A DNA stretch of 51,507 nt from Candidatus Woesearchaeota archaeon (GTDB lineage: Archaea > Nanobdellota > Nanobdellia > Woesearchaeales > GW2011-AR15): contig JAFGRO010000005.1 of assembly GCA_016935095.1 (NCBI GenBank), positions 1-51,507 of the forward strand, in the 5' to 3' direction. The notes under the pieces were generated by a model. It saw only the letters and a list, made by a program, of their open reading frames with translations, was not told the origin of the DNA and made no database searches. Of this stretch, positions 6,301 through 11,287 are shown piece after piece (the stretch's first letter is position 1; each line of letters starts with the position of its first letter). A program made the translations under genes and the position numbers.

Positions 6301-7305
6301 TTATTCTAATAAATCAGCTAGTTTTATTTCTAATTCTTTTTTATCTGGTAAATATAGTTTGTATTTGGAAACAAATAACTTATTTGAGATTCCTCCTAGT
6401 GCATATTTTACTTCAATATGGTCTTTTTCAGCTGAAAGAATTATCCCTATGGGATCTTTGTCTTGTTCTGTATTTTCTTCTGCTTTAAAATAATTCAGAT
6501 ACATATTCATTTGTCCGATGTCTAAATGGTTTACTTTTCCAATCTTTAAGTCAATAAGAACAAAGCATTTCAAAATCCTGTGGTAAAACACTAAATCAAC
6601 ATAAAAATGCTTATTTCCAAGAGTCATGCGAAACTGCCTGGAAACAAAGGTGAATCCCTTGCCTAATTCCAATAAAAACATCTGTAAATTGTCAATTATT
6701 TTTTGTTCTAATTCTTTTTCTGAATATTTGTATTCTTCTGGGATTTTAAGAAATTCTAGGATGTATGGATCTTTAATGACATCTTTTGCTTTTTCTATGG
6801 TTAATCCTTTTTTTGATAATTCTAACACCTCTTTTTTATCCTTGCTTAAAGCAACCCTAAAAAATAATGCTGAATTAATTTGTCTCTTTAATTCCCTGAC
6901 AGACCATTTTTCTTCAATGCACTGCTTCTCATAAAAAGATCTCTGTAAATTATCATCAAGACTTAACAATTCAACATAGTGACTCCAGCTTAATTTTCCA
7001 GACAGTGTCTGGAAATTCTCATATTTTATATACAAATTTCTCATTGAGTACACATTACTTTTGCTAAATCCTTTCCCAAATTTGATTTTAAGATCTTTAG
7101 AGAGCTTTGCCAGCAATTCAGAACCATACTCTGCTTTTTCTTTTCCCTCTTGTTCATATTCAACTATTCTCTTGCCAATTTTCCAATAGGTTTGCACTAA
7201 AATCCAATTTACAGCTCTATAAGCTTGTCTTCTTCCTTGTTTTAAAATAATACTTATATTTTCAATCAGGTCTCTATAATTGTTTTTAGTTAACTTTTTC
7301 ATCAT
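6301..7305 (-). CDS. DUF1016 (YhcG-type) PD-(D/E)XK nuclease
   Basis: 334 residues from Met at 7305. The N-terminal half carries the DUF1016 pattern (AVNWILVQTYWKIGKRIVEYEQ, YGSELLAKLSKDL, SNVYSMRNLY, LSWSHYVELL). The C-terminal half is a nuclease fold with FYVDLVFYHRILKCFVLIDLKIGK, giving the D...D-x-K core. These proteins sit near restriction systems and mobile DNA. The frame stays open to 7383, but a TATA box at 7330-7337 is about 27 nt before the Met codons at 7305/7302, so a leaderless start there is preferred. The 5933-6298 gene follows in the same operon. Confidence 0.85.
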   Translation of the reverse strand: MMKKLTKNNYRDLIENISIILKQGRRQAYRAVNWILVQTYWKIGKRIVEYEQEGKEKAEYGSELLAKLSKDLKIKFGKGFSKSNVYSMRNLYIKYENFQTLSGKLSWSHYVELLSLDDNLQRSFYEKQCIEEKWSVRELKRQINSALFFRVALSKDKKEVLELSKKGLTIEKAKDVIKDPYILEFLKIPEEYKYSEKELEQKIIDNLQMFLLELGKGFTFVSRQFRMTLGNKHFYVDLVFYHRILKCFVLIDLKIGKVNHLDIGQMNMYLNYFKAEENTEQDKDPIGIILSAEKDHIEVKYALGGISNKLFVSKYKLYLPDKKELEIKLADLLE

Positions 7306-7329
7306 GTAAGAGGTTGTGAGGAGATAAGG

Positions 7330-7337
7330 TTTATATA
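7330..7337 (-). promoter_or_regulatory. TATA box of the DUF1016 operon
   Basis: Read on the reverse strand, TATATAAA is centred about 28 nt before Met 7305. It lies inside the longest open frame, which argues against the upstream start at 7383. Confidence 0.5.
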
Positions 7338-7366
7338 GGTTGTGTGGGAATGTCCAGTGCTTTTTT

Positions 7367-7483
7367 TTAAATAAATTTAACAAAATTCAGCTCAGCACCA
7401 GTATGCATTCTTTCAATATTAAGAATTTCAATCAGTTCATTGATAAGTTGTTTGTTTGCGTAAATTAAGACTATTGAGTTCAT
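7367..7483 (-). CDS. Possible 38-residue ORF or gene remnant
   Basis: A short reverse-strand frame beginning MNSIVLIYANKQLINELIEIL. No family is recognised. It overlaps the region just upstream of the DUF1016 promoter and could be the tail of a decayed gene. Confidence 0.2.
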   Translation of the reverse strand: MNSIVLIYANKQLINELIEILNIERMHTGAELNFVKFI

Positions 7484-7516
7484 TAAAGTTGAAAAAAAGA
7501 TTAATAAATAAGTATA

Positions 7517-7633
7517 CTAAAATTGTTCAAGGCTTTTTTGTTCTAAAAATATTTCTTGTTTTTTTTCATTCCACTTAATTGTGAATTTATCTGCTGGAGG
7601 ATTTATCCTCATTCTTTTAATGACATTTACCAT
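7517..7633 (-). CDS. Possible 38-residue ORF or gene remnant
   Basis: A second short reverse-strand frame, MVNVIKRMRINPPADKFTIK onward, ending SLEQF. Its composition is protein-like and basic. It is probably a fragment left from an earlier gene between the nuclease gene and the DpnI-like gene. The rest of the 7384-7685 gap is AT-rich and holds nothing else I recognise. Confidence 0.25.
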   Translation of the reverse strand: MVNVIKRMRINPPADKFTIKWNEKKQEIFLEQKSLEQF

Positions 7634-7656
7634 AACGGAATAATTACCGAAACGCA

Positions 7657-7669
7657 TTTATATTTGATC
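7657..7669 (+). promoter_or_regulatory. TATA box and GATC site of the DpnI-like gene
   Basis: TTTATATT (7657-7664) is centred about 26 nt before the ATG at 7686, predicting a leaderless transcript. A GATC site (7666-7669) lies between the TATA box and the start. Methylation of that site by the neighbouring methylase could change promoter use. Confidence 0.45.
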
Positions 7670-7685
7670 TTCTAATTATTAAATT

Positions 7686-8465
7686 ATGTTAAATTTATCC
7701 TTATATCAAAAAAATGTTTTTAGAAATTATAAAAGTAATTCACAAATAGCAAGGGTACTTACAGAGAGCTGGTTTTCTTCTGAAATGTACTGCCCTTGTT
7801 GTTTAAATGAAAAAATAAGTAAGTATCCAAATAATCAGAAAGTTGCTGATTTTTTATGCGATTCATGTAAGAATGAATTTCAAGGAAAAAGCTCAAGTAA
7901 AACTTTCGGAAAAATCTTGAATGATGGAGAATATCATACTATGCTTAGTTTTGTTAAAAATAATCTTACACCTAATTTTTTCCTTTTACATTATTCAAAA
8001 GAAGACTGGAAAGTAAAAAACTTGTATTTCATACCAAAATTTTTCATAAATGAATCAATTATAATTAAAAGAAATCCTTTATCTAAAACAGCAAGGAGAG
8101 CGGGTTGGACAGGATGTAATCTGCTGATTGAGAGAATCCCAAAAGAAGGAAAAATTTATATTATTAACAAAGGGGAAATAATTGACAAATCTAATGTTTA
8201 TAATACATGGAAAAAGATGAGTTTTTTAGGAAAAAAAGACCCTTCAACGAGGGGTTGGACATCGGATGTTCTTAAATGTGTACAACAACAAGATAAAGAG
8301 AAGTTTACCTTACAAGAATTCTATAAATTTTCAAAAAAATATTTACAGGAATTACATCCACATAATAAAAATGTTGAAGCAAAGATTAGACAACAGTTGC
8401 AGATATTAAGAGATAATGGAATATTGAGATTTGATTCAAGAGGAACTTATTCTACTATAACCTGA
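7686..8465 (+). CDS. DpnI-like methyl-GATC protein with altered catalytic residue
   Basis: 259 residues, collinear with DpnI as I remember it. YKSNSQIARVLTE, zinc cysteines C36/C39 and C58/C61, VADF, SKTARRAGWTGCN, STRGWT and the C-terminal KIRQQLQILRD winged helix all match. DpnI cuts GATC only when the adenine is methylated, and both its nuclease domain and its winged helix read the methyl mark. The PD-(D/E)XK core here is D55 ... Q66-G-K68, where DpnI has D53 ... E64-L-K66, so the catalytic Glu appears replaced by Gln (codon CAA). The protein may cut slowly, or bind without cutting. It precedes a DpnA-like methylase. Confidence 0.9.
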   Translation: MLNLSLYQKNVFRNYKSNSQIARVLTESWFSSEMYCPCCLNEKISKYPNNQKVADFLCDSCKNEFQGKSSSKTFGKILNDGEYHTMLSFVKNNLTPNFFLLHYSKEDWKVKNLYFIPKFFINESIIIKRNPLSKTARRAGWTGCNLLIERIPKEGKIYIINKGEIIDKSNVYNTWKKMSFLGKKDPSTRGWTSDVLKCVQQQDKEKFTLQEFYKFSKKYLQELHPHNKNVEAKIRQQLQILRDNGILRFDSRGTYSTIT

Positions 8466-8482
8466 CTCTTAATTTTTTCTTC

Positions 8483-8538
8483 GTTACCATTCGATGTAAC
8501 ACACATTTATAAAGATCAATGATCCGACCGATATGATC
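8483..8538 (+). promoter_or_regulatory. Promoter of the methylase gene with three GATC sites
   Basis: TTTATAAA (8506-8513) is the TATA box. GATC follows directly at 8514-8517, again at 8521-8524 and 8535-8538, the last near the predicted transcription start. An inverted repeat GTTAC/GTAAC (8483-8487, 8496-8500) lies just upstream and could be an operator. Three GATC sites in 25 bp is far above the roughly one per 300 bp expected in DNA this AT-rich, which suggests methylation-sensitive control. Confidence 0.5.
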
Positions 8539-8548
8539 GTGTTTGGTA

Positions 8549-9364
8549 ATGTGTGGTTGGGTCAAATCAAAGCATAAGATTTTTTATGGTGATTGTTTAT
8601 ATATCTTAAATAAAATCCCCTCAGAATCAATAGATTTAATCATCGCCGATCCACCCTACGGTCTGGCTAAAAAGAAAGGTCTTGGATGGGCTTATTCCAA
8701 GCATGTTACTTTGGAGGAAGAGTGGGATCTTTTTTCTAAAGATGGATTTTTTAAATTTAACAAAGAATGGATTAATGAATGTGTTAGAGTTTTAAAACAC
8801 GGAGGAAGTCTTTGGGTAATGGGATCTTTTCATAATATCTATCAATTAGGTTTTATAATTCAGCACATAATGGATTTAAAAATTAATAATTCTATTGTGT
8901 GGTTTAAGCCAAATGCACAGCCTAATATTACATGCAGGTTTTTTACAGAAAGTACAGAGCATTTAATATGGGCTTCTAAAAACGGAGAAGGAAAAAAATG
9001 GATATTTAATTATGAAGATACTAAAAATAAAATCTCAGATGATCTTAATCCTAAAGGAAAGCAAACAAGAAATGTCTGGAAGATCCCTTTAACAACTAAA
9101 AAAGAAAAATGGGCAGGACATCATCCAACGCAAAAGCCAGAAGAATTAATCAGAAGAATAATTCTTGCTTGTACAAATAAAGGCGATACAATACTGGATC
9201 CTTTTTTAGGATCAGGAACGACTTCTGCTGTTGCCAAGAACATGGGAAGAAATTCCATTGGCATTGAAAAAGAAAGAAAATATCTTTCAATCATTAAAAA
9301 AAGAATAAATCCACTTCAGAAAAAAATCAATGAAGATACTGAAATAGAATATATTAATGTTTAA
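8549..9364 (+). CDS. DpnA-like adenine-N6 DNA methyltransferase (beta class)
   Basis: 271 residues. DPPY (34-37) precedes the S-adenosylmethionine motif DPFLGSGTT near the C terminus, the beta-class order. SFHNIYQLG, CRFFTESTEHLIWASK and EKWAGHHPTQKPEELIRRII closely follow DpnA (M2.DpnII), which methylates adenine in GATC, including on single strands; HinfI-type methylases are less close. The likely target is therefore GATC, but this is unproven. ATG 8549 is preferred; TTG 8543 is in frame 6 nt earlier. It lies 83 bp after the DpnI-like gene, with its own promoter. Confidence 0.88.
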   Translation: MCGWVKSKHKIFYGDCLYILNKIPSESIDLIIADPPYGLAKKKGLGWAYSKHVTLEEEWDLFSKDGFFKFNKEWINECVRVLKHGGSLWVMGSFHNIYQLGFIIQHIMDLKINNSIVWFKPNAQPNITCRFFTESTEHLIWASKNGEGKKWIFNYEDTKNKISDDLNPKGKQTRNVWKIPLTTKKEKWAGHHPTQKPEELIRRIILACTNKGDTILDPFLGSGTTSAVAKNMGRNSIGIEKERKYLSIIKKRINPLQKKINEDTEIEYINV

Positions 9365-9367
9365 TCA

Positions 9368-9499
9368 TTATTTATTGAAATATTTATTGTAGCAATCAGC
9401 ACAGTATGTGATTGACCTATAGTTCTTTTTGTTGTTTTCAACTACAAACCTTGTTCTGCACATCTGGCATTCCGCGATCTGTTTATATACTTTCTCCAT
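9368..9499 (-). CDS. 43-residue zinc-ribbon-like protein
   Basis: Reads MEKVYKQIAECQMCRTRFVV, then a second pair in YCADCYNKY. The spacing C11-x2-C14 and C33-x2-C36 is a minimal zinc ribbon. The start overlaps the end of the upstream gene by 17 bp, which indicates translational coupling. Its stop is 3 bp from the methylase stop on the other strand. Small zinc ribbons often bind RNA or act as adaptors; the role is unknown. Confidence 0.55.
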   Translation of the reverse strand: MEKVYKQIAECQMCRTRFVVENNKKNYRSITYCADCYNKYFNK

Positions 9500-9662
9500 C
9501 TTGGCCTCCTGCAATCTCTTTTTCTATTTTTTCCAGTTCCAGCCTGTATTCTTTCCTGCGCTGGTCTTTTGCAGAGTTTATCTGCTTTAGCTTTTTATCC
9601 CATTCCATAGGGATTAGTCTCTTCCTGATTTCATTTCTTTTTACAATTAGTGTTTCATCCAT
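9483..9662 (-). CDS. 59-residue basic helical protein
   Basis: Starts MDETLIVKRNEIRKRLIPME and ends in a charged helix (KEYRLELEKIEKEIAGG). Nearly every residue after position 20 favours a helix, possibly a coiled coil. It overlaps the start of the zinc-ribbon gene, so both probably form one small operon. No family is recognised. Confidence 0.45.
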   Translation of the reverse strand: MDETLIVKRNEIRKRLIPMEWDKKLKQINSAKDQRRKEYRLELEKIEKEIAGGQDGESI

Positions 9663-11029: not shown

Positions 11030-11287
11030 TTAATAAATCCTGCTGCGTTTGTCAATCTTAATAATTCCAACTGAGTTATTTTGATAGTTAATTTCATAAA
11101 GGATTCTATAATCTCCTACTCTGATCCTGTATAATTTTTCTTTAAATCCTTCAATGGATTTAGTGTCATGCATTACAGGGTTTTCTTTTAATAATTCAAT
11201 TTTAGTTATAATTCTCACAACTAAATCTTTATTTAATTTTTTTAGAAATTTAATGGCTTTGCTTGAATACTTTATAGAGAACATCAT
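11030..11287 (-). CDS. relE: RelE/ParE-superfamily toxin
   Basis: 85 residues with the archaeal RelE pattern: helical AIKFLKKLNKDLVVRIITKI, then strand-rich KLYRIRVGDYRILYEI and VGIIKIDKRSRIY. RelE toxins cut mRNA in the ribosome. The Arg residues in YRIRVGDYR and DKRSRIY are the family's usual basic surface. Two ATG codons overlap the antitoxin stop (ATGATG), so the start is 11287 or 11284. Toxin follows antitoxin, the common relBE order. Confidence 0.88.
   Translation of the reverse strand: MMFSIKYSSKAIKFLKKLNKDLVVRIITKIELLKENPVMHDTKSIEGFKEKLYRIRVGDYRILYEINYQNNSVGIIKIDKRSRIY

Follow-up and report, generated by a model that had tools for sequence, protein, structure and literature searches.

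A glutamine-type DpnI homologue encoded beside a DpnA-like methylase in archaea, with GATC clusters at their promoters: a possible N6-methyl-GATC reader and writer

Results

Organization of the locus

The window, meaning the whole stretch of 51,507 nucleotides analyzed here (contig C76), belongs to an archaeal genome of 1.77 Mb and encodes a DpnI homologue followed 83 bp downstream on the same strand by an N6-adenine methyltransferase (Table 1), the nearest sequenced relatives of both genes being found in DPANN archaea. The DpnI homologue matches PF06044 (229.3 bits) and PF17726 (92.4 bits), both above the curated cut-off, and is 41% identical to DpnI of Streptococcus pneumoniae, and its AlphaFold model (pLDDT 95) superposes on the DpnI structure (PDB code 4esj) with a TM score of 0.86-0.92. 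The methylase matches PF01555 (214 bits) and has intact ADPPY and DPFLGSGTT motifs. Both family matches bear out the initial annotation, which had placed a DpnI-like protein next to a DpnA-like methylase. No Rfam match occurs in window positions 7300-9600, and a search for viral or phage homologues returned only distant or partial matches.

A gene for a YhcG/DUF1016 family PD-(D/E)XK protein, PADLOC candidate PDC-S02, adjoins the cassette on the minus strand (6301-7308), and further along that strand (11030-11287) is a short protein resembling a RelE/ParE-type toxin as judged by sequence only.

Table 1. Coordinates of the genes and promoter elements within the window
Feature	Position	Strand	Remarks
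TATA-like box TTTATATTT of the dpnI promoter	7657..7665	+	
GATC abutting the dpnI TATA-like box	7666..7669	+	20 bp before the ATG
DpnI homologue, Gln at the catalytic Glu position	7686..8465	+	259 aa; PD-(D/E)XK domain with Cys4 zinc site, C-terminal winged helix
Gln66 codon CAA (DpnI Glu64 position)	7881..7883	+	Lys68 codon next, at 7887-7889
TATA box TTTATAAA of the methylase promoter	8506..8513	+	directly abuts the first GATC
Candidate operator	8514..8538	+	GATC at 8514, 8521 and 8535
DpnA/CcrM-type beta-class N6-adenine methyltransferase, intact, probable target GATC	8549..9364	+	271 aa from the ATG at 8549; TTG at 8543 also possible

Gln at the catalytic Glu position

In DpnI the site-1 metal is held by Asp-53 and Glu-64 and the attacking water is positioned by Lys-66 (PMC4117772). 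The active-site core of the window protein is D55...Q66-G67-K68 in place of D53...E64-L65-K66, leaving the Asp-Glu-Lys triad incomplete with Asp and Lys kept and Glu replaced by Gln, and the zinc cysteines (C36/C39/C58/C61), the ARRAGW segment and the winged helix are all present, exactly as first read from the sequence. The comparison with family alignments that had been suggested shows the Gln to be clade-wide. Among 88 distinct homologues position 64 is Gln in 16 and Glu in 72, Asp-53 and Lys-66 being invariant in both types, and in 18 of 20 further archaeal loci with a readable motif the residue is again Gln, the two Glu-type loci both being from Thermoplasmatota. A tree built by quick search only places the Gln-type sequences in one clade of DPANN and Thermoplasmata archaea with a single verrucomicrobial member (SH-aLRT 98) and gives a second origin in two Clostridia. 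A sequencing error at the CAA codon, raised as a caveat at the outset, is excluded in practice by the same Gln in many independent genomes, and a lone mutation of the window genome is ruled out by its clade-wide distribution.

DpnI contacts Gm6ATC through Ser-17, Gln-18, Asn-48, Asp-78, Arg-126, Leu-129, Arg-135, Trp-138 and Gly-140, with Leu-129, Arg-135 and Trp-138 forming the methyl pocket, and through Lys-229 and Arg-231 of the winged helix (PMC4117772). By alignment the window protein retains every contact residue given there. Across the family these residues and the winged-helix stretch KIRQQL are, with single exceptions, identical in Gln-type and Glu-type proteins, and because the contacts are the same in both types Gln-type DpnI should still recognize methylated GATC. 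The DpnI homologue, with its two separate domains, is the protein of the locus expected to recognize Gm6ATC.

The consequence of the substitution for cleavage has precedents in both directions. The equivalent exchange in EcoRI, E111Q, which also keeps Asp and Lys, gives an enzyme that binds its site without cutting (PMC5409509); that variant was engineered in the laboratory, whereas Gln-type DpnI is a natural family. Natural nucleases with a PD-QXK or D-QxK site are known in the Mrr type and in BtgZI (PMC11037411, PMC4081073), although they have no close sequence kinship with the window protein and resemble it in this one residue only. Column comparison revealed no compensating acidic residue in the Gln-type proteins. 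As Asp and Lys are invariant, silence of the nuclease cannot be assumed. The alternative of an active methyl-directed nuclease, in which Gln would serve as a metal-site ligand in a D-QxK site and Gm6ATC would still be cut, draws on this invariance, on the natural PD-QXK enzymes, on the two independent origins of Gln and on the many Gln-type genomes that yielded no DpnA-like and no D12 methylase.

The methylase and its probable target

The window methylase shares 46% identity with the enzyme encoded in the DpnII-type operon of plasmid pSRQ700 (LlaDCHI, which recognizes GATC) and about 40% with CcrM-type enzymes. On the methylase tree it falls in an archaeal clade (18 rows, 100/100) that is sister to the DpnA group, and the CcrM enzymes form a separate clade (100/100). 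The description of the methylase as DpnA-like is accordingly apt as regards an intact and plausibly GATC-specific enzyme, but its position is next to the DpnA group and not within it. It resembles DpnA/M2.DpnII and LlaDCHI-B, the GATC-specific beta-class enzymes of DpnII-type systems, in family and motif order; unlike them, it has no adjoining DpnM-type D12 partner or DpnII-type nuclease in the window genome. A GANTC target of the CcrM kind is disfavored by the placement outside the CcrM clade; the enzyme shares the beta-class superfamily with CcrM, but its NCBIfam CcrM score is 242 against a cut-off of 830 and the long CcrM C-terminal domain is missing. Within the archaeal clade one member, 76% identical to the window enzyme, has a DpnII-family nuclease as neighbor, the two genes overlapping. 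The methylase clades and this DpnII-family neighbor make GATC the probable target of the window methylase. For the methylases beside Gln-type DpnI at L018 and L021, which fall in the other clade and are nested among DpnII-paired GATC enzymes, family membership firmly indicates GATC.

A window-type methylase occurs in 16 of 371 genomes of the phylum (window genome included), most of them lacking DpnI. GATC is the lowest-ranked tetranucleotide palindrome in 7/7 genomes with a window-type methylase alone and stands at 0.52 of expectation in the window genome and at 0.30-0.58 in carrier genomes generally. Avoidance is not discriminating as a test of restriction, as 3/7 genomes of the phylum that lack both genes likewise avoid GATC more than any other palindrome. 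In most of the genomes sampled from this archaeal phylum (the window and L209-L288), including some that lack both genes, GATC ranks first or close to first among avoided tetranucleotide palindromes.

These data bear on an ordinary Type II restriction-modification system, in which the DpnI homologue would now cut unmethylated GATC and the methylase would protect the host. The adjacent same-strand genes, the recurrent recruitment of GATC-type methylases and the low GATC content of carriers fit such a system, but three of the seven genomes lacking both genes also avoid GATC most, the methyl-binding cleft and winged helix are unchanged, and no column near the active site or methyl cleft distinguishes Gln-type proteins with a methylase partner from those without one so as to hint at new specificity. 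None of the cleft mutants of DpnI became active on unmethylated DNA (PMC4117772). We consider a Type II pair improbable.

Pairing of dpnI with intact methylase genes

An intact methylase lies directly downstream of Gln-type dpnI in the window and at L016, L018, L021, L025, L293 and L322, these seven pairs having the same order and strand although their methylases come from two separate clades. At two further Gln-type loci, L343 and L344, the methylase is upstream and truncated, and Gln-type L013 stops at a contig edge. Glu-type loci often keep pieces of GATC methylase genes, with an in-frame stop at L019, a frameshift at L060 and the methylase N-terminal part missing at L035, L040, L049, L056, L074, L087, L092 and L099. 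The methylase is intact at 7/9 Gln-type and 2/12 Glu-type loci (P 0.009), a trend and not proof since many of the Glu-type wrecks come from related Bacteroidota.

The initial annotation stated that the two systems, alternative cassettes in pneumococcus, never occur together. As a general rule this needs care. Glu-type dpnI in bacteria usually sits beside a wrecked GATC methylase, but at Glu-type L045 (Paludibacter) the adjoining DpnA-like methylase is intact and that of L084 is nearly intact. If its methylase targets GATC, the window likewise departs from the arrangement of a DpnI standing alone without a genomic GATC methylase. In a survey of more than 1,000 winged-helix fusion endonucleases, 87% had no methylase gene nearby and fewer than 100 possible genomic conflicts were noted (PMC11037411).

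A chance association, in which two defense genes have drifted together in a defense island with one or both decaying, would suit the candidate defense gene YhcG/DUF1016 next door and the wrecked methylases at several other DpnI loci. Set against it are the order and strand held constant in seven loci with two methylase clades, the intact reading frames and the operators conserved between L021 and L322 (see below), and we regard it as quite unlikely.

In bacteria, Glu-type dpnI directly follows genes for DpnM-like D12 methylases whose C termini are abnormal, and precedes DpnA or DpnII remnants (L035:5037-5960, L049:4961-5974, L056:5013-5996, L085:1882-2847, L096:5178-5984, L064:4889-5782; also L083 and L091), an arrangement suggestive of dpnI insertion into loci for GATC restriction-modification. 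The Glu-type dpnI at L097:5992-6759 carries an in-frame stop, and the same genome (G744) has an intact DpnA-like methylase elsewhere.

GATC clusters at the promoters

The intergenic region before the methylase ATG in the window reads TTTATAAA-GATC-AAT-GATC-CGACCGATAT-GATC and the dpnI promoter reads TTTATATTT-GATC. No other GATC triple in the 51.5-kb window is as tight as the candidate operator, which spans 21 bp, the next distinct triple spanning about 128 bp. At the same place L021 has six GATC sites and L025 four. The paired methylase promoters together hold 15 GATC against 1.67 expected, and the seven dpnI-methylase intergenic regions 21 against 1.74, clustered at the TATA box in most pairs. 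GATC is the most enriched of all 16 tetranucleotide palindromes in these regions, TCGA ranking second partly because it overlaps GATCGATC. An operator of the form GATC-CATTATATAAAG-(N)TTTA(N)-GATCGATC-N-GATCGATC is common, nearly letter for letter, to L021 and L322, and the L018 operator is repeated in L293.

Clustering is not a general trait of GATC methylase genes, as unpaired methylase promoters are at expectation, with one exception in L160 with four GATC; the window-like ones show 3 observed versus 3.4 expected, a count that leaves out L152, which is cut by a contig end. Glu-type dpnI promoters are depleted (6 observed versus 14.5 expected), although at L314 and L316, two archaeal loci of the Glu type, GATC is present upstream. 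The operator prediction was set down before the further archaeal loci were gathered, and in this held-out set the Gln-type loci hold 14 GATC against 3.98 expected (P 7e-5). Only 5 of 501 promoters across 13 Gln-type genomes have at least three GATC, and three of the five belong to cassette methylases. Exceptions exist: L016 is paired and has no operator GATC, and Thermoplasmata L303, L304 and L310 have AATC, AATC and GGCC where close relatives carry GATC.

Three GATC sites also precede the elongation factor 2 gene at L229:10430-12613 in a Gln-type DpnI genome (G058), possibly a further operator.

Discussion

A possible feedback circuit

Our tentative reading, to which we give slightly less than an even chance, is that the locus pairs a writer and a reader of N6-methyl-GATC in a cassette that regulates itself by feedback and in which cutting is weakened or lost. 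It draws on the gene order, the intact methylase, the conserved recognition residues, the clade-wide Gln and the operator enrichment with its controls and held-out loci. The methylase would write Gm6ATC, and the Gln-type DpnI homologue would read it with the cleft and winged helix that DpnI uses, sitting on methylated GATC operators on or next to the methylase TATA box and at the single GATC site of its own dpnI promoter. A protein bound at GATC beside a TATA box would block an archaeal promoter, and the simplest circuit is one of feedback, in which the methylated operator recruits the reader, the reader represses transcription of the writer and methylation limits its own source. The change from Glu to Gln would weaken or abolish cutting so that reader and writer are tolerated in one cell; weakened or lost cutting is suggested for the paired members because a nuclease that cut the operator sites would sever its own cassette first.

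Several observations weigh on this circuit. The invariant Asp and Lys in all Gln-type proteins suggest retained catalysis. In the Gln-type genomes that yielded no DpnA-like and no D12 methylase, a pure reader would have nothing to read, and such unpaired members may be working restriction enzymes that use a GATC site only for self-control. The truncated methylases at two Gln-type loci, L016 with its promoter free of operator GATC and the three Thermoplasmata promoters lacking their relatives' GATC all speak against it.

The active nuclease introduced above accounts for some of these points. The methylase would be normally off, confined to an alternative state or directed at another target, leaving the genome without GATC methylation while the nuclease is present, and the promoter GATC sites would act as a safety switch by which methylation shuts the genes down. 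Truncation of the methylases at L343 and L344 is what an active DpnI would require, and at L045 even a Glu-type DpnI is found beside an intact DpnA-like methylase. Yet with an intact GATC-type methylase alongside, clusters of three to six GATC would be an ideal substrate for self-cleavage, a separate TATA box precedes the methylase gene, which looks expressible, and intact methylases accompany Gln-type more often than Glu-type dpnI, with the kinship of many Glu-type cases noted above. The active nuclease is the main rival, somewhat less probable than the writer-reader cassette. Of the silent reader or regulator first proposed, the retained methyl-reading residues stand and the promoter GATC sites supply candidate operators; silencing by Gln is the part that does not follow, given the invariant Asp and Lys, the Gln-type proteins in genomes where a search detected no GATC methylase, the two wrecked methylases and the known D-QxK nucleases.

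A broader proposal goes beyond the feedback cassette and is held with more doubt, though still as a real possibility: an archaeal DpnI clade would have turned from cutter into dedicated N6-methyl-GATC reader and, where joined by its own methylase, would form a two-gene epigenetic feedback switch with methylated operators on TATA boxes.

Relation to known systems

The window protein shares with R.DpnI of S. pneumoniae (Type IIM; PDB codes 4esj and 4kyw) the fold, the Cys4 zinc site, the winged helix, all listed Gm6ATC contacts and the catalytic Asp and Lys; it differs in having Gln for Glu-64 and Gly for Leu at residue 65, in lying beside an intact DpnA-like methylase and in its promoters with candidate GATC operators. 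The Neisseria dam-replacing gene product Drg is also a DpnI homologue, for which an additional regulatory role exerted by the winged helix has been proposed (PMC4269198), but it is Glu-type and its neighboring DpnA-like methylase has an in-frame stop. The part consulted of a survey of archaeal systems, which includes orphan GATC methylases, mentions no such pair (PMC10609329), and a literature search found no report of Gln-type DpnI, of such a pair or of GATC operators in one. The promoter GATC clusters of the Gln-type dpnI-methylase pairs are new, and the component parts were already known.

Few non-cutting sequence-specific readers of N6-methyladenine are known in prokaryotic DNA. If the feedback cassette is real, a natural Glu-to-Gln DpnI and its writer would constitute a small archaeal epigenetic switch, would illustrate a route from restriction enzyme to regulator and would offer a Gm6ATC-binding protein ready for use. 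If instead the protein still cuts, the question arises how a GATC methylase and a methyl-GATC nuclease can share one cell, and the GATC operators make this directly testable.

Other genes adjoining GATC-type methylases

Of about 29 archaeal GATC-type methylase genes, roughly 20 have as neighbor a member of an uncharacterized family of ~165-230 amino acids, in most cases encoded on the opposite strand (L150:6859-7497, L154:6864-7481, L165:6705-7487, L016:8900-9406, L343:3441-3914, L056:8810-9352 and others), and at one Bacteroidota locus a member comes right after a DpnA remnant. The members tested gave no Pfam, NCBIfam, PADLOC or PDB match, and the family could be a GATC nuclease or a methylase regulator. 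At L167:932-2773 and L169:1141-2982, archaeal AlwI-type (GGATC) nuclease genes lie between two DpnA/CcrM-like methylases.
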